Source of the DNA: Sphingomonas swuensis
GTDB lineage: Bacteria; Pseudomonadota; Alphaproteobacteria; Sphingomonadales; Sphingomonadaceae
Assembly: GCF_039538045.1 (NCBI RefSeq)
Contig: NZ_BAABBQ010000001.1
Span: 1,200,001-1,264,000 of the forward strand
Reading direction: 5' to 3'
DNA length: 64,000 nt
Each line of letters begins with the position of its first letter. Within the stretch, counting starts at the first letter, position 1. The translations under genes were made by a program, and so were the position numbers. Shown piece after piece: positions 7,922 to 57,299 of the stretch. The notes beneath the pieces were generated by a model. The model searched no databases, was not told where the DNA came from, and saw only the letters and a list, made by a program, of their open reading frames with translations.

Positions 7922-8223
7922 GCTACTGACCTCCCGCACGCCACGTCGGCACGGTGGGAGCCCGAAGCTCGCAGGACCGTGCCCGCGCTGTCCCGGGGGA
8001 CCGGCGTGCGGAAGGCGTTCGCTTGTGGTGCGTGGCAGGCACCTGCATACCCGGTGCAGTGGGAAACCGGCAGTCTGGTGCTGACCGCATCGGAAGGATG
8101 TCGCGCTTCATGCTGGTTCCCCGTTGTGAGGATTCGAACCTCGCCGCCGATTGGAGCAGCGGTAAATCAAGCGGTCAACGTCAAAGGGTTAAGCCTCGCT
8201 TCAGCCGGAGTTGTTGAGGAGCC
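7922..8223. other. gene-free stretch with palindromes and a T-arm-like motif
   Basis: No credible coding frame lies between the divergent SPFH and SIMPL genes. The region holds several GC-rich inverted repeats, for example GTCCC/GGGAC near 8000. It also holds, on the minus strand, GAGGTTCGAATCCTC (8129-8143), which looks exactly like a tRNA T-arm followed by a CCA-like end at 8114-8116. No matching 5' acceptor strand was found, so it is not an intact tRNA. It may be a tRNA fragment or an unrecognised structured RNA. Confidence 0.5.
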
Positions 8224-8249
8224 GGAACAGCATCGCGCAAATGCTCGTT
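8224..8249 (+). promoter_or_regulatory. EcfG-type general stress promoter of the SIMPL-domain gene
   Basis: GGAAC (8224-8228), 17 bases, CGTT (8246-8249) matches the consensus GGAAC-N16/17-CGTT used by EcfG sigma factors in alphaproteobacteria. Transcription would begin near 8257, giving a leader of about 20 bases that contains AAGGA before the ATG at 8278. Match seen directly; function inferred. Confidence 0.75.
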
Positions 8250-11098: not shown

Positions 11099-13493
<2,395 letters not shown>

Positions 13494-21119: not shown

Positions 21120-21241
21120 GCGGCCCCGGCGGTTAACGTGATCTGGCGGCGACGCCACACCGCCATGAGGCCAGCGGTTCGCCGTAAACAGCGGTTAACG
21201 TCAGTGGCTTGTTCATTTTCGCTCGGCACATTCAGCGTGTC

Positions 21242-21736
21242 ATGCGTCGCATCGTTCCCTTGCTCGCCCTTCTTCTCGCCGCCAGCCCGGCCGCCGCCCA
21301 GAATTGGTCGGCCGAGCTGCTTCGGCTGCACAATGCCGAGCGCGCCCGGTGGAACGTCGCGCCGATGGCGTGGGACCTCGGTCTCGCGCTTGCCGCCGAC
21401 CGCTGGGCCGCCGAGCTCGCGCGGACCGACCGTTGGGGCCACAGCCCGCGGCAGATCCGAGCCGGGCAGGGCGAAAATCTGTGGATGGGCAGCGTCAACG
21501 CCTATCCGGTCAACGCGATGGTCGGGGCGTGGCTGAACGAGGGCCGCTGGTTCCGGCCGGGCGTGTTCCCGGCGGTGAGCCGCACCGGCAACTGGAGCGA
21601 CGTCGGCCACTACAGCCAGATCGTCTCCCGGCGGAGCGAGCGGGTGGGCTGCGCCATCCGCTCGAACCGCCGCTGGAGCTATCTCGTCTGCCGCTACTCG
21701 CCCTCGGGCAATGTCGACGGGCGCTACCTGCCTTAA
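21242..21736 (+). CDS. CAP-domain (SCP-like) exported protein
   Basis: 164 residues. The signal peptide MRRIVPLLALLLAASPAAAQ is followed by a compact CAP/SCP domain: LLRLHNAERARWN (first conserved His), GHSPRQ, GENLW, and VGHYSQIVSRRSERVGCA (second His region). Two cysteines near the C-terminus (GCAIR, LVCRY) may form a disulfide. CAP proteins are secreted and their biochemical roles vary. ATG 21242 gives the clean signal peptide. The stop overlaps the converging gene by four bases. Confidence 0.88.
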   Translation: MRRIVPLLALLLAASPAAAQNWSAELLRLHNAERARWNVAPMAWDLGLALAADRWAAELARTDRWGHSPRQIRAGQGENLWMGSVNAYPVNAMVGAWLNEGRWFRPGVFPAVSRTGNWSDVGHYSQIVSRRSERVGCAIRSNRRWSYLVCRYSPSGNVDGRYLP

Positions 21737-33254: not shown

Positions 33255-33279
33255 GGAACGCCTCAGTGTCCGACCCGTT
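33255..33279 (+). promoter_or_regulatory. EcfG-type general stress promoter of the SRPBCC-ADH-SDR operon
   Basis: GGAAC (33255-33259), 16 bases, CGTT (33276-33279) matches the EcfG consensus. It starts six bases after the E2 stop. Transcription would begin near 33287, giving a leader of about 17 bases with AGGAGG (33293-33298) before TTG 33304. A hairpin GACCCG/CGGGTC (33272-33287) overlaps the -10. Confidence 0.8.
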
Positions 33280-33303
33280 GGCGGGTCAGGACAGGAGGCA
33301 CCA

Positions 33304-34185
33304 TTGGTCCAGGATACACACGATCACGACAAGGTCGACCGGGAGGTCGAACGGCTCAACCGGCAAGCCGTCGCGGATGCCGAGGCGAAGCGCCCAAGTC
33401 CGGCAGGCAAGCGCAAGCTGCCCGAGGTCGACGAGGACGAGCGGGTCCGCATTCGCGGCGCGGCCGAGAAGCGCCGCGACGGCAAGTCCGGCAGGAACAG
33501 TGATGCGGGCACCTCGAACCGAGCGCTGATCGGTCTTGGCCTCGGCCTTGCGACTGCCGGTGCCGCGGCCTTCTTCTTCGCCCGTGCGCGGTCCGAGGAC
33601 GAGGATCACGGTCCGACGATCAGCGACGCACCCGACCATGTGCTGCGCGGCCGCGCCCTTCGCGAGGCCCGCAACCAGGAAGGCGGACGGGCGCTCGTCG
33701 GGCGCACCGTCACCATCGCCAAGCCGGCGAGCGAGCTTTACGCCTTCTGGCGCGCGTTCGAGCGTTTCCCCGAGTTCATGGACAATGTCCGCGAGATCCG
33801 CCGGGTCGACGAGAAGAGCTCGGAGTGGATCATCGAGGCCCCGATGGGCGCGACGGTGAGCGTCCGGACCCGGATCGTCGAGGACGTTCCGAACAAGACG
33901 ATCGCCTGGGTAAGCGAGCCCGACAGCCAGATCGAGCATGAAGGCCGGGTCGAGTTCGCCGACGCGCCTCCGGGCCGCGGCACCTATGTCCGGCTGCTGC
34001 TCCGCTACACGTTCCCGGCAGGCGAGATCGGGCGGCTGTTCGCCAAGCTCCTGCAGCGCGAGCCCAACGTCCAGGCGCGACGCGATCTTCGCCGGTTCAA
34101 GCAGCTCATGGAAACCGGCGAAGTGCCGGTCAATTCGTCCCCGTCGGCCCGCAAGAGCGAGAGCCCGACGCAGCCGCACATCTAG
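33304..34185 (+). CDS. SRPBCC (polyketide cyclase/dehydrase-like) membrane-anchored protein
   Basis: 293 residues. A charged N-terminus (about 1-75) precedes one membrane span ([22 protein letters not shown]), then an SRPBCC lipid/hydrophobic-ligand fold with [35 protein letters not shown] and [17 protein letters not shown] (read in parts). This matches the COG5637 type of cyclase/dehydrase proteins. The start is TTG 33304, five bases after AGGAGG. Ligand unknown. First gene of a likely stress-induced operon with the alcohol dehydrogenase and SDR genes. Confidence 0.82.
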
Positions 34186-34196
34186 GAGATACTCCC

Positions 34197-35423
34197 ATGA
34201 AGGCTCTCACCTGGCACGGCCGCCACGACGTGCGCGTCGACAACGTGCCCGACCCCGAGATCGTCAATCCGCGCGACGCGATCCTCAAGGTCACCTCGAC
34301 CGCAATCTGCGGCTCGGACCTCCACCTCTACGACGGCTATATCCCGACGCTCCGCGCCGGTGACGTGCTCGGCCACGAATTCATGGGCGAAGTGATCGAG
34401 GTCGGCGCCAAGTCGACCCTCAAGAAGGGCCAGCGCGTGGTGGTGCCCTTCACCATCAGCTGCGGCTCCTGCTTCTTCTGCGACAAGCAGCAGTTCTCCG
34501 CCTGCGACAACAGCAACCCCGCCGAGACCTCGGACGCATCCGAGGCCCTGATGGGGCACGCGATGGGTGCCGCCTTCGGCTATGCTCACCTGACCGGCGG
34601 CTATGCTGGCGGCCAGGCGGAATATGTCCGGGTGCCGTTCAGCGATGTCGGCCCGATCGTGGTCCCCGATCATCTCGACGACGACAAGGTGCTGTTCCTG
34701 TCCGACATTCTGCCGACCGGCTGGCACGCGGCGGTCAACGCCGACATCGAGCCGGGCGACACGGTCGCTGTCTGGGGCTGCGGGCCGGTGGGCCTGTTCG
34801 CCATCCAGAGCGCCTTTAAGCTCGGCGCGCACCGGGTCATCGCGATCGACCACTATCCATCGCGACTGGCCCTGGCCAAGAAGATGGGCGCCGACATCCT
34901 CGACTATCGCGAAGTCGAAGTGCTCGAGGCGTTGAAGGAGATGACCGGCGGTATCGGTCCGGATGCGGTCATCGACTGCGTCGGCATGGAGAGCCACGGG
35001 CTGGCGATCGACAACATCGCCGACACGGTGAAGGCGCATCTGATGCTCGGCACCGAGCGTCCGCATGCGCTGCGTCAGATGATCATCGCCTGCCGCAAGG
35101 GCGGGCGCGTCTCGATCCCCGGCGTCTATGGCGGCTTCGCCGACAAGTTCCCGCTTGGACAGCTGATGGAGAAGGGGCTGACCATCAAGTCGGGCCAGAC
35201 CCCGGTCCAGAAGTATACCAAGGACCTGCTCAAGCTGATCGAGGAAGGTGAGCTCGACACCACCTTCATGATCTCGCACCGCGAGCCGCTCACCCAGGCC
35301 GCCGACCTCTACCAGAAGTGGCACGACGAGCAGGACACCTACACCAAGATCGTGCTCAAGCCCGGCATGGACCAGACCGCCAAGGTCGATCTGGCCGCCG
35401 CGCGAGCCGTCGAGCCAGCGTAA
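34197..35423 (+). CDS. zinc-dependent alcohol dehydrogenase (formaldehyde dehydrogenase-like)
   Basis: 408 residues of the medium-chain dehydrogenase family. Catalytic-zinc ligands lie in [13 protein letters not shown] and GHEFMGEV; structural-zinc cysteines in [18 protein letters not shown]. The NAD-binding motif is [17 protein letters not shown]. Overall it resembles glutathione-independent formaldehyde or threonine-type dehydrogenases that are common beside stress genes. AGGAG precedes ATG 34197, 11 bases after the previous stop. Substrate is unproven; detoxifying aldehydes or alcohols under stress is an inference from the promoter and neighbours. Confidence 0.88.
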
Positions 35424-35433
35424 AAGGACAATC

Positions 35434-36198
35434 ATGGCCAACAAACTTGCTGTCATCACCGGAGCCTCGAGCGGCATCGGTCTCGAAATCGCGCGCCTCG
35501 CCTCGGCCGAGGGCTATGACCTCATCGTTGCCTCGGACACGCCGCAGGTCGATGCGTCGGCCGGACTCGACGGCGACGTCTCGACCATCGAGGCCGACCT
35601 CGCGACCGAGCAGGGCGTGCGCCAGCTGCTCACCCAGATCGGCGACCGCGAGGTCGACGTGCTGGTCGCCAATGCCGGCCACGGGCTGGGCGACGGCTTC
35701 CTTGAGCAGAGCGTCGCCGAGTGGCGCCACGTCATCGACACCAACATCACCGGGACCCTGCTGCTGATCCAGCCGCTCGCCCGCAAGATGGTTCGGCGCG
35801 GTGAGGGGCGGATCCTCATCACGGGCTCGATCGCCGGGCACATTCCTGCCGCCTTCCAGGCGGTGTACCACGCCAGCAAGGCGTTCGTGGACAGCTTCGC
35901 CGCGGCGCTCGGCAACGAGCTCAAGGACACGGGCGTCACCGTCACCTGCCTCAAGCCGGGCGCGACCGAGACCGAATTCTTCTCGCGCGCGGGCATGGAG
36001 GACACCAAGGTCGGACAGTCCAAGAAGGACGACCCCGCCGATGTCGCCAAGACCGGCTGGGAGGCGATGAAGAAGGGCGAGCACGCCGTCGTGCATGGCC
36101 TGATGAACAAGGCACAGGTGCTCGCCTCCGGCGTGCTTCCGGAGAGTGTCGTCGCCGAGCAGGGCCGCAAGCTGAACGAGCCCGGCAGCGGAGAGTGA
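35434..36198 (+). CDS. short-chain dehydrogenase/reductase
   Basis: 254 residues, classical SDR. Cofactor motif TGASSGIGLEIARLA, NAG motif VLVANAGHGLGD, catalytic serine in ITGSIAGHIP and YxxxK as YHASKAFVDSF. An Asp after the second strand (VASDTP) hints at NAD use. It follows the alcohol dehydrogenase by 10 bases with AAAGGA as Shine-Dalgarno. Substrate unknown. Confidence 0.92.
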   Translation: MANKLAVITGASSGIGLEIARLASAEGYDLIVASDTPQVDASAGLDGDVSTIEADLATEQGVRQLLTQIGDREVDVLVANAGHGLGDGFLEQSVAEWRHVIDTNITGTLLLIQPLARKMVRRGEGRILITGSIAGHIPAAFQAVYHASKAFVDSFAAALGNELKDTGVTVTCLKPGATETEFFSRAGMEDTKVGQSKKDDPADVAKTGWEAMKKGEHAVVHGLMNKAQVLASGVLPESVVAEQGRKLNEPGSGE

Positions 36199-36211
36199 TC
36201 GTTCGGGCGGC

Positions 36212-36236
36212 GGAACGGACCGCCGCCTGACCCGTT
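36212..36236 (+). promoter_or_regulatory. EcfG-type general stress promoter of the AI-2E permease gene
   Basis: GGAAC (36212-36216), 16 bases, CGTT (36233-36236). The ATG at 36245 lies only nine bases after the -10 element, so the transcript would be leaderless or nearly so. A perfect hairpin TGACCCG-TTCG-CGGGTCA (36228-36245) overlaps the -10 and reaches the start codon. Confidence 0.78.
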
Positions 36237-36244
36237 CGCGGGTC

Positions 36245-37282
36245 ATGACGGACAGCAACGACGACTCGCGCTTCATTCGCCGGACCCTGATCGTCATCGC
36301 CCTGGTGGCGTTGACGATACTTGCGTGGATGCTGCGCGAGGTCGCGCTGATGGTCTTCGGCGCGGTCGTCGTCGCCACGCTCTTCCAGAGCCTGGCGAAG
36401 CAATTCGAGCGCCTTCATATTCCGCAGGGCATCGCGTTGCTCCTCTCGGTGCTGACCGTGATCGCGATCGTCGGCTTGTCCTTCGCCCTGTTCGGGGCGC
36501 AGCTCGTGAGCCAGGCCGAGGGCATTCGCGAGGCGCTTCCCCGCGCCTGGGCCAGCCTCCAGCAGCGGCTTGCCGGCTTCGGCCTGCAGGGACAGCTCGA
36601 GGCGCTGAAAGGGCAGGGGAGCGGCTTCGCGGCCACGGCGGGGCAGTTCGCGATGAGCCTTGGCGGCGGACTTGCCGACGCGCTGCTGATCGTCGTCGGC
36701 GGGGTCTTCATCGCCGCCTCGCCGCGCTTTTACCGCACCGGCATCCTCAAGCTCTTCCCGAGCGGCCGCCGCGAGGTGACGGCGAGCGCGCTGGAGGACA
36801 GCGGCAACGCGCTCCGCCTGTGGCTCAAGGCGCAGCTGCTGACGATGGCCGGAGTGGGGATCGCGACCGGGCTCGGACTGTGGCTGGTCGGCATGGAAAG
36901 CGCGCTCGCCTTCGGGCTGCTCGCCGCCCTGCTCGAGTTCATTCCGTTCGTCGGCCCGATCCTCGCCGCAATCCCGGCGGTGCTGATCGCCGCCTCGACC
37001 GATCCCCAGATGGCGCTGTGGGTGCTCGGCGTGTATCTCGTCGTCCAGCAGATCGAGGGCAATCTCCTCCAGCCGCTGCTCCAGCAATGGGCGGTCGATC
37101 TTCCCGGCGCGGTGCTGCTCTTCTCGCTGCTCGCGATGGGGACCTTGTTCGGTCCGCTCGGGGTCATCTTCGCCGCGCCGCTGACCGTCGTCATCTACGT
37201 GCTGATCAAGCGGCTCTACGTGCGCGAGGCACTCGACACCGAGACCAGCATTCCCGGCGAGGACCAGCGCGACAACGACTAG
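36245..37282 (+). CDS. AI-2E family transporter (PerM-like permease)
   Basis: 345 residues with about eight membrane spans in the PF01594 pattern: two N-terminal spans (TLIVIALVALTILAWML, ALMVFGAVVVATLFQ), a central soluble helix pair (about 95-135), and the conserved ESALAFGLLAALLEFIPFVGPILAAIPAVLIA followed by YLVVQQIEGNLLQPLLQ (read in parts). The family includes AI-2 exporters and Na+/H+ or unknown permeases, so the substrate is open. No Shine-Dalgarno is possible with the predicted short leader. The gene converges on otsA with 15 bases between stops. Confidence 0.88.
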   Translation: MTDSNDDSRFIRRTLIVIALVALTILAWMLREVALMVFGAVVVATLFQSLAKQFERLHIPQGIALLLSVLTVIAIVGLSFALFGAQLVSQAEGIREALPRAWASLQQRLAGFGLQGQLEALKGQGSGFAATAGQFAMSLGGGLADALLIVVGGVFIAASPRFYRTGILKLFPSGRREVTASALEDSGNALRLWLKAQLLTMAGVGIATGLGLWLVGMESALAFGLLAALLEFIPFVGPILAAIPAVLIAASTDPQMALWVLGVYLVVQQIEGNLLQPLLQQWAVDLPGAVLLFSLLAMGTLFGPLGVIFAAPLTVVIYVLIKRLYVREALDTETSIPGEDQRDND

Positions 37283-37297
37283 CGTTGTTTGGGCGGC

Positions 37298-38677
37298 TCA
37301 CACCGGCTGGTGCTGCTCCAGTGCGTCGGTGAACCGGCGGCGCCACCACAGCACGTCCTCGGCACAGACATTCTCGAACATCGCCCGCCAGCGGCGGATA
37401 CGCTCGGCCTTGGGCATCGCCAGCGCGGTGCGGATCGAGTCGGACATCTCCTCGGCGCTGTAGGGATTGATCAGCAGCGCTTCGGTGAGCTGGTCAGCCG
37501 CACCGGCGAAGCGCGACAGGATCAGGACGCCCGGATCCTCGGGGTTCTGCGCGGCGACGAATTCCTTGGCAACGAGGTTCATCCCGTCGCGGATCGGCGT
37601 GACCAGTGCGATCCTCGAGGCGCGATAGATGCCGGCGAGGACCGCCCGCGAATAGCCCTGGTTGACGTAGCGGATCGGCACCCAGTCGTAGTCGGCGTGC
37701 GCGCCGTTGATCCTGCCCGACAGCCCCTCGAGGCTGCTGCGGATGCGCTGGTAGCTTTCCACCGTCCCGCGCGACGGCGGCGCGATCTGGAGCAGGAACA
37801 CTTCCTTTCGTTCCTCGGGGTTCTCGATGAGGAAACGCTCGTAACCGAGGAAGCGCTCTTCCAGGCCTTTGGAATAATCGAGCCGGTCGACCCCGACGAT
37901 CATCGCCCGGCCGTTGGCGCTGTCGCGCATCTGCGCGAAGGTCTGCTGCGCTTCGTCACCCCGCGCGAGCGTCGCGAACTCGTCGCTGTCGATCCCGATC
38001 GGGCAGGTGATCAGCCGGATCTGCCGACCGTCGAGCCGGAGGATGCCGTCGGCATATGCGCCGCCGCTTTCGAGCACCACGAAGTCGACGAAGGACTGCA
38101 GCCACTCGTCGGTGTGGAAGCCGATCACGTCGTAGGCGAACATGGTCGCGACCAGTTCGGTCGCCTCGGGCAGGGTCAGCAGCAGCCGGCGCGGCGGCCA
38201 GGGCGTGTGGAGGAAGAAGCCGATGCGGTTCTTGCAGCCGCGCTTGCGCAGCTCCTGACCGAGCGGGATCATGTGATAGTCCTGAACCCAGACCATGTCG
38301 TCGGGCTCGACCAGCGGGACCACGGTCTCGGCGAAGCGCTCGTTCGCTCGCTGATAGCCGCCGGCAAAGCCGCGCTCATATTCGGCGAGGTCGACGCGGT
38401 AATGGAACAGCGGCCAAAGCGTGCGATTGGCGTAGCCGTTGTAATATTCCTCGACGTCCTGTTCCTCGAGGTCGATCGTGGCGGTGGTCACCCCGTCGTC
38501 GCGGTGAAAGGTAATCTGCCCGCTGAACTCCTCGGTGACCTCGCCCGACCAGCCGAACCACAGCCCTCCGCTTTCGCGCAGCGCCGAGGTCAGCGCGACC
38601 GACAGCCCGCCCTGAGCGCCGGCAGTACCGCCGGTGGCCGCGGACACCCGGTTGGAGATGACGATCAGGCGACTCAT
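37298..38677 (-). CDS. otsA: trehalose-6-phosphate synthase
   Basis: 459 residues, GT20 family. Joins UDP-glucose and glucose-6-phosphate to form trehalose-6-phosphate. Seen are MSRLIVISNRVS, the GG loop region GGLSVALTSALRESGGLWFGWSG, VWVQDYHMIPL, and the donor-binding segment VGVDRLDYSKGLEERFLGYERFL (read in parts). ATG 38677 overlaps the GH15 stop (ATGA). Third gene of the otsB-GH15-otsA operon; the product of this enzyme is the substrate of OtsB. Confidence 0.96.
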   Translation of the reverse strand: MSRLIVISNRVSAATGGTAGAQGGLSVALTSALRESGGLWFGWSGEVTEEFSGQITFHRDDGVTTATIDLEEQDVEEYYNGYANRTLWPLFHYRVDLAEYERGFAGGYQRANERFAETVVPLVEPDDMVWVQDYHMIPLGQELRKRGCKNRIGFFLHTPWPPRRLLLTLPEATELVATMFAYDVIGFHTDEWLQSFVDFVVLESGGAYADGILRLDGRQIRLITCPIGIDSDEFATLARGDEAQQTFAQMRDSANGRAMIVGVDRLDYSKGLEERFLGYERFLIENPEERKEVFLLQIAPPSRGTVESYQRIRSSLEGLSGRINGAHADYDWVPIRYVNQGYSRAVLAGIYRASRIALVTPIRDGMNLVAKEFVAAQNPEDPGVLILSRFAGAADQLTEALLINPYSAEEMSDSIRTALAMPKAERIRRWRAMFENVCAEDVLWWRRRFTDALEQHQPV

Positions 38678-40455
38678 CGGATCGAGCTCCAGGGCTTGCT
38701 GAGCAGGACAGCGCAGTTGATGGTCCCGACCAGCGAATAGGTCTGCGGATAGTTGCCCCACAGCTCGCCCGTCTGCGGATCGATATCCTCGGACAATAGC
38801 CCGGCCCCGGTCCGACGCGACAGCATTTCCTCGAACAGCGCGCGCGCGTCCGCCTCGCGCCCTGTCGCCTGAAGCGCCTCGATGAGCCAGAAGGTGCAGA
38901 CGTTGAAGGCGGTCTCGGGCAGGCCGAAGTCATCCTCGGTGGCATAGCGCAGCATGTGCGAGCCGCGCCTCAGCCCCTGTTCGACCGCCTCCAGCGTCCC
39001 GGTGAAGCGCGGGTCGCCGGGCGTGAAGAAGCGCAGGTCGAGCAGCTGGATCAGGCTGGCGTCGAGGTCGTCGCCCTCGAAGGTGGCGGAGATGCGTCCG
39101 CTGTCCTCGCGCCAGGCGGCCTCCTCGATCCGGCTCCGGACGGTGGCGGCGCGTGTCGCCCAGTGGCGCGCCCGCTCGTCCAGCCCGAGTGCTTCCGCGG
39201 CGTGGGCAAGCCGGTCGCAGGCGGCCCAGCACATGGCGGCCGAATAGGTGTGCACATGGCGCCGCGTCCGCAGCTCCCACAAGCCGGCATCGGGCTTGTC
39301 GAACAGTTCGAAGGCACGGTCGCCGACCCGCTCGAGCGAGGCGAAGTCTTCGGCAGTGGCCATTCGGAACAGCCGGTGGTCGAAGAAGGCCTGGACGTTG
39401 GACAGCACGATCTGGCCATAGGCGTCGTGCTGGACCTGCTCATAGGCCTGGTTGCCGACCCGCACCGGACCCATGCCGCGATAGCCCGGCAGTCCTTCCT
39501 CGATCCGCTCCTCAAGCCGTGCCTCGCCGCTTAGCCCGTAGAGGGGCTGGATGTGGCCGCCCTTGGCATCGTCGACGATGTTGCGGAGATAGCCGAGGTA
39601 AAGCTCGAGCACGTCAAGCGCGCCGAGCCGGTTGAGCGCCTGCACCGTATAATAGGCGTCACGGATCCAGCAGTGGCGATAATCCCAGTTGCGCTGCGAC
39701 CCGGCATGCTCCGGAACCGACGTGGTCAGCGCCGCGACGATCGCTCCCGATTCCTCATGCTGGCAGAGCTTGAGCGTGATCGCCGCGCGGATCACCGCTT
39801 CCTGCCACTCGACCGGCGTGGCGAGCCCGCGCACCCATTCCTTCCACTCCGCGGAGGTCCTGCTCAGCATCTCGCCGGCAGCCCGCGCCAGATCGTCGCT
39901 GAACGGCTCGTCCGGGCCAAGGAAGAAGGTCAGCGGCCGCTCCAGACGGAACAGACGTTCCTCGCGGACAACCGTGACGGGCGCATCGGTGGTCAGCCGC
40001 ATCGGAAGGGTCGGGAGCTGGTAGCGGATATGGTTGGACCCGCCCGGCAGCGGTGCGGCAGCCTCGCCCCAGTTCTGCGTCGGCCGCAGCCTCACCCGGA
40101 TCCGCGGACTTCCGCTGACCGGCCGCACGAGCCGGACGAAGGCGGCAGGGCGGAAGGTCCGCCCGAGGCGCGAGAAGCGCGGGCAGAAATCGATGATCTC
40201 GATCGCGTTGCCGGCGGCATCGGACTTGCGGGTGGAGAGGATCGGCGTGTTGCGAAGATAGGATTGCTCGACCTCGGTCTCGCCGTCGAGGTCGATCGCC
40301 CACATGCCCCGTTCGGGCTGCTCACCCCCGAGCAGGCTGGAGAAGAGCGGATCGCCGTCGACCCGCGGGACGCAGGCCCAGACCATCGCGCCGGCGCGAT
40401 CGATGAGCGCGCTGACCTGGCAGTTGCCGATCGGCCAGAGATCGAGCGAGCTCAT
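38674..40455 (-). CDS. glycoside hydrolase family 15 protein (glucoamylase or trehalase)
   Basis: 593 residues without a signal peptide. The N-terminal beta-sandwich (about 1-220) starts MSSLDLWPIGNCQVSALIDRAG. The (alpha/alpha)6 catalytic domain has RNWDYRHCWIRDAYYT, GYRGMGPVRVGNQAYEQVQHDAYGQ and LPETAFNVCTFWLIEAL, all GH15 signatures. GH15 includes glucoamylases and some bacterial trehalases. Its place between otsB and otsA, with ATGA overlaps on both sides, suggests an intracellular role in trehalose or glycogen turnover. Which substrate it takes cannot be told from sequence alone. Confidence 0.9.
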   Translation of the reverse strand: MSSLDLWPIGNCQVSALIDRAGAMVWACVPRVDGDPLFSSLLGGEQPERGMWAIDLDGETEVEQSYLRNTPILSTRKSDAAGNAIEIIDFCPRFSRLGRTFRPAAFVRLVRPVSGSPRIRVRLRPTQNWGEAAAPLPGGSNHIRYQLPTLPMRLTTDAPVTVVREERLFRLERPLTFFLGPDEPFSDDLARAAGEMLSRTSAEWKEWVRGLATPVEWQEAVIRAAITLKLCQHEESGAIVAALTTSVPEHAGSQRNWDYRHCWIRDAYYTVQALNRLGALDVLELYLGYLRNIVDDAKGGHIQPLYGLSGEARLEERIEEGLPGYRGMGPVRVGNQAYEQVQHDAYGQIVLSNVQAFFDHRLFRMATAEDFASLERVGDRAFELFDKPDAGLWELRTRRHVHTYSAAMCWAACDRLAHAAEALGLDERARHWATRAATVRSRIEEAAWREDSGRISATFEGDDLDASLIQLLDLRFFTPGDPRFTGTLEAVEQGLRRGSHMLRYATEDDFGLPETAFNVCTFWLIEALQATGREADARALFEEMLSRRTGAGLLSEDIDPQTGELWGNYPQTYSLVGTINCAVLLSKPWSSIR

Positions 40456-41177
40456 GCCAGCACCTCGCTTGCCTGGGTCAGCCAGCGGTGCACCTCGGTC
40501 ACGCTCGCCAGCCGGAAAGCCGCCTCCGTTTCGCGTTCCTTCCCGACGAGGATGCCCGCGCCACCGAGCCTGCGGACCACGGCAAAGCCATGCTCGTCGG
40601 TAAGGTCGTCGCCGATGAAGACCGGGCGGGTTCCCGCAAGCCGCGGTTCGGCCATCAGGGCTTCGATCGCGGTGCCCTTGTCGCCGTGCGCGGGCTTGAT
40701 CTCGACCACCATCTTGCCCGGCTGGACCTCCATGCCGAGCCGCTCGGCGACAGCCGCTGCGGCCGCGTGGCACTCCTGTTCGGCGGCGGGAGCCTCGCGG
40801 TAGTGGAGGGCGGCACCCATCGGCTTCTCCTCGACGATCACCCCTTCGTGGCGGGCCAAGACGGCACGCAGGTGGCTGAGCCCTTCGTCAAGCGCTGCGC
40901 TGCGCGCAACCGTAACGCCGTCACGCTCGAGACCGTGGCTCCCGACCACCGACACTTGAAGTGGCGCAAGCCATGCGCGGACGTCGGCCGATGCCCGCCC
41001 ACTGACCAATGTCAGCCGTCCCTGGAGCCGCTCCTCGAGCGTCTGCAGCAGGCCGAGCAGCGCCGGCTCCACCCGGATTGCGTCGGGGCGCTCGGCGATG
41101 TCGACGAGCGTTCCGTCGAAGTCGAGGAACAGGGCAGCGTCGCGCAGCAGGGTTTGCGGCGGCGTCGGAAGGGGCAT
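40452..41177 (-). CDS. otsB: trehalose-6-phosphate phosphatase
   Basis: 241 residues, HAD superfamily. The nucleophile motif LFLDFDGTLVDIAE (Asp19, Asp21) is near the N-terminus; TLVSGRASADV and PVFIGDDLTDEHGFAVV complete the phosphatase site. Makes free trehalose from the OtsA product. First gene of the operon, about 64 bases downstream of the predicted transcription start of an EcfG-type promoter. The stop overlaps the GH15 ATG. Confidence 0.95.
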   Translation of the reverse strand: MPLPTPPQTLLRDAALFLDFDGTLVDIAERPDAIRVEPALLGLLQTLEERLQGRLTLVSGRASADVRAWLAPLQVSVVGSHGLERDGVTVARSAALDEGLSHLRAVLARHEGVIVEEKPMGAALHYREAPAAEQECHAAAAAVAERLGMEVQPGKMVVEIKPAHGDKGTAIEALMAEPRLAGTRPVFIGDDLTDEHGFAVVRRLGGAGILVGKERETEAAFRLASVTEVHRWLTQASEVLA

Positions 41178-41247
41178 GGTCCTCGCGTGGGTTCGATGAT
41201 GGAATGAGAGACAGGCAGCAGAGGGGAGCCCGCCGCTGCATCCGGAG

Positions 41248-41272
41248 AACGACACCGTAACGCCCCTGTTCC
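41248..41272 (-). promoter_or_regulatory. EcfG-type general stress promoter of the trehalose operon
   Basis: On the minus strand GGAAC (41272-41268), 16 bases, CGTT (41251-41248). It lies just after the end of the oxidase gene run and upstream of otsB. Trehalose genes are known members of the general stress response in several alphaproteobacteria, which makes this match functionally sensible. Confidence 0.82.
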
Positions 41273-49187: not shown

Positions 49188-49314
49188 GGTCGGTTCCGCA
49201 CCAACGCGTCACGCGGGGTGGAGCGCCCCCACTGCCAAAGCCGCGCCGCCCCGTTCGGTTCCTTCGCTCGCAGATGCAGACGCCATTGGTAGGCGCTGCC
49301 TCTTGCGCCTTGGA

Positions 49315-57203: not shown

Positions 57204-57299
57204 TCGCGGTCTTTCGAAAAGGGAAAACAGAAAAAGCAGGTCATGAAGCGCACGATGGCTGACGGGCGTTCCGAAAGGATGGGCCCGACGATGTCGCGG

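Follow-up and report, generated by a model that had tools for sequence, protein, structure and literature searches.

In an unstressed cell NepR holds the sigma factor EcfG of the general stress response (GSR). When a HisKA_2/HWE kinase leads to phosphorylation of PhyR, PhyR takes NepR, and transcription by the freed EcfG-RNA polymerase begins just past a CGTT element. The motif derived from the EcfG-dependent genes of Sphingopyxis granuli is GGAAC-N16-CGTT (PMC7083833), and the EcfG-dependent genes of Sphingomonas melonis include a Zn-dependent alcohol dehydrogenase (#2499; PMC6599016). In Caulobacter crescentus there is also a small RNA, GsrN, which is activated by SigT, has a C-rich loop and in related species lies mostly beside the GSR locus; no apparent gsrN-like gene was seen in Erythrobacter litoralis (PMC5869019). 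Dealt with here is a stretch of 64,000 nucleotides from Sphingomonas swuensis, termed the window, which is part of the single 2.79-Mb contig of that genome. It has four matches to a motif equal to that of S. granuli, with 16 or 17 spacer nucleotides, and these are very probably promoters read by EcfG. As such they are further examples of a known promoter type. The parts that a specialist would not expect are a putative small RNA elsewhere in the regulon and the near-absence of the motif from genes.

Candidate EcfG promoters in the window and the genome

A pattern search of the whole window for GGAAC-N16/17-CGTT, below called the strict motif, returns exactly four matches (Table 1). An earlier note on this DNA had placed four such sites, each within about 75 bases of a start codon and pointing at it, and its coordinates and strands are all exact. 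In a window called 92% coding, all four are intergenic and aimed at a start, the distance from the end of CGTT being 29 nt for the SIMPL-domain gene, 25 nt for the SRPBCC gene, 9 nt for the AI-2E gene and 71 nt for otsB. With 8 bases between CGTT and ATG, the AI-2E mRNA is predicted to be leaderless or nearly so. Dinucleotide shuffles of the window (n = 100) gave a mean of 0.63 matches, and four or more in 1 of the 100.

Genome-wide there are 29 strict sites, all of which were read, and none is in a called gene. Targeted wrong-spacing sites of this genome (N13, 14, 15, 18, 19 and 20, forward strand, among the matches listed) were coding in 18 of 21 instances (Fisher p = 7e-11), and 23 of 29 were coding when every wrong-spacing site in the control stretches was included. 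The strict sites end at most 110 nt before a same-strand start in 24 cases with the stricter gene caller and in 26 with the permissive one. The three sites with no called start are a near-palindrome in locus L040 that is counted again on the opposite strand, a site in L038 that is 8 bases ahead of an uncalled open reading frame (ORF) conserved in four species, and the promoter of the small RNA described below. The regulon to which the four window sites belong has about 28 independent sites of the strict kind.

The earlier note had asked whether the motif is lost in close relatives; it is retained. In the four close species (the genome itself, G000, with G011, G017 and G020) the SRPBCC and SIMPL sites are strict throughout. 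The otsB site is strict in three, 90–95 bases before the aligned otsB start, and the fourth has TGTT at 96. The otsB gene is elsewhere in the genome in G011, G017 and G020, with the site retained 90–96 bases before its aligned start. Sixteen site-gene pairs, those of SRPBCC and SIMPL included, are strict in all four species. A wider scan, which allowed one mismatch and covered the stretch between 280 bases before and 30 bases after the first position of the protein match, found a site at 14 of 14 SRPBCC loci (0–3 for wrong spacings), 7 of 9 otsB loci (3 strict; wrong spacings 1–4), 5 of 9 SIMPL loci (4 strict; 0–3) and 8 of 12 AI-2E loci (1 strict; 1–3). The controls were four wrong-spacing pairs, each of which yielded at most one strict match. 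The SRPBCC set has one locus from each of the 14 matching genus genomes among 41 searched, with one additional fragment (G010) and one additional weak match (G009) set aside. The SIMPL set is the best 9 of 39 matches, which come from 25 genomes, and its last member has 37% identity; the otsB set is all nine loci and the AI-2E set the best twelve.

The association of the motif with the SRPBCC gene and the alcohol dehydrogenase (ADH) gene that follows it extends further. Among named loci (L118-L154, the first 37 of 80 ADH matches, each having an SRPBCC match before the ADH) the motif was sought 470–1000 bases before ADH, with GGAAC exact and at most one mismatch in CGTT. It is present in 24 of the 37, against 3 for N13/14, 3 for N19/20 and 7 for N15 alone. 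We take the titles of these loci to be alphaproteobacterial, though one reads only "uncultured bacterium"; those with the motif include Sphingomonas, Sphingobium, Devosia, Jannaschia, Roseovarius and Phenylobacterium. On Bosea and Bradyrhizobium contigs where no SRPBCC gene was detected (L185, L189, L190), EcfG-like motifs occur 52–82 bases before ADH itself.

Because of their motif, their placement and their conservation in related species, the four sites are very probably real promoters. That the SRPBCC site is an EcfG promoter appears almost certain, with the otsB site hardly behind it and the SIMPL site also highly probable; the AI-2E site is quite probably one. Conservation across close species holds for the first three and is weakest for AI-2E.

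Several observations weigh against this reading. The number of strict matches is not raised. Spacings N7 to N28 together give 296 matches including the 29, or 13.4 per wrong spacing, and N13/14, a control that keeps the codon phase, gives 35. An argument from match number had been made in the earlier note, with about one match expected by chance. It fails genome-wide, and the count was rejected as proof of promoters. Within the 225 kb that hold strict sites only 17 of 31 wrong-spacing sites are coding, which makes the contrast with none of 29 smaller, though 17 of 31 is itself still far from none. The SIMPL site is absent upstream of the orthologues in the more distant G005, G014, G024 and G004, the AI-2E site is strict only in its own genome, and 13 of the 37 named loci have no site before SRPBCC-ADH. 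The gene calls and starts are those of a home-made codon-model caller, written for this analysis. A strict count about equal to that at wrong spacings is what would be expected if the four matches were chance and their genes had no joint stress regulation. That is very improbable, given that strict sites stay out of genes where the targeted controls do not, and that sites are conserved at the same position in relatives. The evidence for promoters is thus placement, direction and conservation rather than number.

For AI-2E, a narrower alternative is that the other three are EcfG promoters while its own site is decayed or incidental, the gene being served by read-through from the SRPBCC-ADH-SDR operon (SDR, short-chain dehydrogenase). 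The strictness of the site in one genome would fit this, as would the position of the gene, 46 bases past the SDR gene in an order that is the same in G009, G011, G017 and G020. One-mismatch sites are found, however, in 7 of the 11 relatives scanned, and AI-2E sites exist also away from that operon (G004, G007, G022), so that read-through alone is improbable.

The core GSR genes, for an EcfG-like sigma factor, PhyR, NepR and a HisKA_2 kinase, are gathered in one locus (L018) of the same contig. The strict motif occurs within it before a 46-amino-acid (aa) ORF that precedes ecfG, and again before the small RNA; a GGTT version at L018:7664-7688 is within the longest nepR ORF but ahead of the conserved part of nepR. 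These sites bear on whether a different extracytoplasmic function (ECF) sigma factor with a similar specificity, or else a second EcfG paralogue, reads the four promoters. EcfG paralogues are possible in sphingomonads and a −35 AAC is common to ECF factors (PMC7083833), but motifs in the GSR locus itself point to EcfG, and the alternative is unlikely. EcfG would bind the four sites, and the four units would be induced by stress. In its absence NepR would keep EcfG bound; under stress the kinase would trigger phosphorylation of PhyR, which would take NepR, and EcfG-RNA polymerase would then start all four just past CGTT.

The gene names given in the earlier note agree with the Pfam families found. 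By these families the units would provide for trehalose synthesis, a redox/lipid-binding operon, a permease and a SIMPL protein that is probably exported. The ADH protein is 71–93% identical to those of seven genus relatives, and its best named match, on a Sphingomonadaceae metagenome-assembled genome (MAG) contig, is at 77%. In the trehalose operon the gene for the GH15 protein overlaps otsB by 4 bases, and otsA likewise by 4 bases; a protein with a trehalase-like N-terminus is thus encoded in the middle of an operon for trehalose synthesis.

Table 1. Features in the window and in the GSR locus (L018); window positions are those of the 64,000-nucleotide stretch
Feature	Position	Strand	Basis or remark
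Candidate EcfG-type promoter of SIMPL-domain gene, GGAAC-N17-CGTT	8224..8249	+	pattern match, placement, conservation
SIMPL-domain (DUF541) protein, 254 aa	8278..9042	+	PF04402, 5.3e-40
Candidate EcfG-type promoter of SRPBCC-ADH-SDR operon, GGAAC-N16-CGTT	33255..33279	+	pattern match, placement, conservation
SRPBCC (Polyketide_cyc) protein, 293 aa	33304..34185	+	PF03364; TTG start
Zinc-dependent alcohol dehydrogenase (ADH_N/ADH_zinc_N), 408 aa	34197..35423	+	PF08240/PF00107
Short-chain dehydrogenase (adh_short), 254 aa	35434..36198	+	PF00106
Candidate EcfG-type promoter of AI-2E family permease, GGAAC-N16-CGTT	36212..36236	+	pattern match, placement, one-mismatch versions in relatives
AI-2E family transporter (AI-2E_transport), 345 aa	36245..37282	+	PF01594
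otsA, trehalose-6-phosphate synthase (Glyco_transf_20)	37298..38677	-	PF00982, run on longer ORF
GH15 protein (Glyco_hydro_15), trehalase-like N-terminus (TREH_N)	38674..40455	-	PF00723, PF19291, run on longer ORF
otsB, trehalose-phosphatase (Trehalose_PPase), 241 aa	40452..41177	-	PF02358, run with 251-aa version
Candidate EcfG-type promoter of otsB-GH15-otsA operon, GGAAC-N16-CGTT	41248..41272	-	pattern match, placement, conservation
EcfG-like sigma factor	L018:5819-6511	-	Sigma70_r2/r4_2 and PhyR_sigma2 domains, place in locus
PhyR	L018:6747-7550	-
NepR	L018, end at 7995	+	gene at C1:2419905
HisKA_2 kinase	L018:8030-9580	+
Putative small RNA, two hairpins with C-rich loops	L018:9624-9730 = G000:C1:2421623-2421729	+	conservation, covariation

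Three further near-consensus candidates in the window, all on the minus strand, are 44 nt (57247-57272), 92 nt (49237-49262) and 115 nt (21234-21258, overlapping a gene) before a same-strand start. ARAGORN found no tRNA in the window.

Pfam scanning of products downstream of strict sites across the genome covered 20 proteins, 7 of them without any family. Those assigned include a Pyrid_ox_like protein, a hemerythrin, a transglycosylase-associated protein, DUF2171 and DUF3072 proteins, a Haem_oxygenas_2 iron-containing redox enzyme, an alpha/beta hydrolase, a peptidase M48, an N-formylglutamate amidohydrolase, a glycine-zipper protein, a TRCF-like helicase and a GH43 protein; a collagen-like match was below its cut-off. 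Such a mix is typical of stress regulons in alphaproteobacteria. Since several strict sites, that of AI-2E among them, end 3–12 nt before the start, leaderless or nearly leaderless mRNAs are predicted for these genes also. In each of the four close species the gene for the TRCF/Mfd-like helicase (L045:833-3976, minus strand) has a strict site that ends 3–10 nt before the start as called. The small ORF in L038 (3979 downwards, minus strand), which the caller missed, resembles a membrane protein. Within 2 kb of L040 (3990-6700) three strict sites, before the Pyrid_ox_like gene, a 71-aa ORF and the hemerythrin gene, make up a small GSR cluster; the third is the near-palindrome that matches both strands.

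Near-absence of the strict motif from coding sequence

The scarcity of strict sites in genes is not peculiar to one genome. All 97 strict sites of G011, G017 and G020 were read: 90 are intergenic, 3 overlap a gene end and 4 are coding (5 with the permissive caller). Two of the 4 are in clear genes and one is in a doubtful 95-codon ORF. The fourth, in G011 (L282), is the small-RNA promoter beneath a 69-base ORF taken as spurious. At N13/14, in G009, G011, G017 and G020, 27 of the 30 sites read (of 172 counted) are coding, and the difference from 4 of 97 is marked (Fisher p = 4e-20). The claim of exclusion is based on the four close genomes, for which the site lists are complete and where 4 of 126 strict sites are coding and roughly 130 coding ones were expected; the N13/14 totals there are 35 in G000, 37 in G011, 46 in G017 and 32 in G020. 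In G009 8 of 27 strict sites were read, and 1 is coding. None of 16 strict sites in L118-L154 is coding, against about 4.7 predicted from wrong spacings, with the gene caller trained on the S. swuensis genome.

A comparison of coding counts with expectation in part of each genome extends this to near-motifs. For the strict motif by itself it gave 4 coding sites against 6.8 expected (p 0.19), a result short of significance since the comparison covered a portion of each genome. Near-motifs follow a partial gradient in genes. GGAAC with [AGT]GTT (5 in genes against 14.2 expected, p 0.005) and [ACT]GAAC with CGTT (11 against 25.4, p 0.001) are thinned there and enriched between genes. G[ACT]AAC is also enriched between genes and not clearly thinned within them (8 against 11.6, p 0.19). 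Mild thinning in genes, with no enrichment between them, is seen for CG[ACG]T (44 against 59.8, p 0.02) and for GGA[CGT]C (27 against 37.9, p 0.04), while GG[CGT]AC, GGAA[AGT] and C[ACT]TT show little effect in genes, and CGT[ACG] has the opposite trend (44 against 33.8).

Exclusion as a general rule for alphaproteobacteria was considered and rejected. In G115, G048 and G180, members of other families of the class, 12 of the 21 strict sites read are coding, these being part of the sites of each genome and the presence of EcfG there not having been checked. Exclusion is therefore at most a lineage trait. Whole-genome totals at N16/17 and N13/14 are 400 and 503 for 12 family members, 1203 and 995 for 15 others of the class, and 1320 and 1336 for 17 genomes of other classes, summed by hand over 44 of 239 genomes that were chosen and not random. 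A literature search on promoter exclusion with alternative sigma factors, in which few subscription papers were covered, found no title or abstract stating such a result.

A putative small RNA beside the GSR kinase gene

One strict site (C1:2421598) is between the kinase gene and the convergent tatC, 1.6 kb from nepR, with no called ORF after it. The roughly 107 bases past it have 92% identity per column in five species, and their predicted fold is two hairpins with a C-rich loop on each. An Rfam 15 scan of the locus gave no family at gathering score. A covariance model that excludes the promoter, used with strict filters under which misses are possible, matches 52 of 159 family genomes, each of them once and at full length, in 32 of 96 genera. 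The best 30 of the 52 loci, that of the genome itself included, were read. Directly upstream of the RNA all 30 have the EcfG motif (20 strict, 10 with one mismatch), a figure given with no wrong-spacing control. In 28 of them a homologue of the GSR kinase precedes the RNA, and in 25 tatC is on its downstream side; neither phyR nor nepR turned up in the 1.5-kb flanks that were examined.

Consistent with an RNA structure, 22 of 29 pairs have changed on both sides; such cells number 105, where shuffling gives 25.5 on average and slid controls at most 17, in an alignment that was fitted to the structure and so favours covariation. The alignment has 34 sequences, the 30 loci and four of the five model sequences; a stricter cut-off left out the three weakest of 37 model matches (E 1e-4 to 9e-4), all three antisense to the main match at their locus. 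Against the window the model has a single weak match (12085-12190, minus strand, 13.9 bits, E 0.14). The RNA is predicted to be structured, with its C-rich loops exposed, and by analogy we infer a putative GsrN-like function. It would be a small RNA in the regulon, beside the kinase and under what looks like EcfG control. A literature search for an EcfG small RNA in sphingomonads found no title or abstract stating one, few subscription papers being covered.

Comparison with described systems

Together these findings make it likely that the sphingomonad GSR has its own small RNA with C-rich loops, expressed from an EcfG promoter between kinase gene and tatC in 52 of 159 genomes and probably acting, like GsrN, on G-rich mRNA leaders, and that EcfG promoters of the genus are so active in any context that strict copies have been cleared by selection from nearly all coding sequence. 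If so, the near-clearing makes the regulon readable from DNA alone. GSR regulons usually come from transcriptomics and hold many unknown genes; promoter, placement and conservation would give a low-noise regulon for an uncharacterised lineage. In many alphaproteobacteria the SRPBCC-ADH-SDR module would be linked to the stress response, and genes that almost lack the promoter offer an opening to study the cost of accidental stress promoters. A small RNA is indicated in sphingomonads; E. litoralis, the out-group of a 2018 survey and in our view a sphingomonad, had shown no gsrN-like gene there.

The EcfG regulons of S. granuli TFA and S. melonis Fr1 have the same core genes, GGAAC-N16/17-CGTT and sites close to starts (PMC7083833, PMC6599016). 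The EcfG-dependent genes of S. melonis likewise include trehalose genes and a Zn-dependent alcohol dehydrogenase (PMC6599016). The earlier note had regarded trehalose as an established target and the other three units as candidate new ones. For ADH this may not hold, #2499 of S. melonis being a possible precedent (PMC6599016). In a literature search that covered few subscription papers, no title or abstract stated an EcfG link of SIMPL, AI-2E or SRPBCC or these ots and ADH results. The S. melonis ADH was examined as a putative indirect target, while here and in the 24 named loci the motif precedes the SRPBCC gene ahead of ADH. The trehalose genes differ as well, being otsB-GH15-otsA here and a cluster of malto-oligosyltrehalose type in S. 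melonis. A further parallel is Bradyrhizobium diazoefficiens, where otsA and otsB also put the trehalose-6-phosphate pathway under EcfG, though with the transporter gene otsC beside otsB instead of a GH15 gene between otsB and otsA (PMC8092242).

GsrN and the RNA described here have in common an EcfG-type promoter, a place by the GSR regulators and a C-rich loop (PMC5869019); the present RNA has two hairpins, each with such a loop, and is likened to GsrN by description, not by sequence. For gene exclusion the counterpart is the accidental promoters of E. coli, where promoter-like sequence is likewise rarer in coding DNA than expected (PMC5906472). Here, in contrast, the sigma factor concerned is an ECF stress factor, and the exclusion is near-complete in four genomes of the genus and not in three others of the class.

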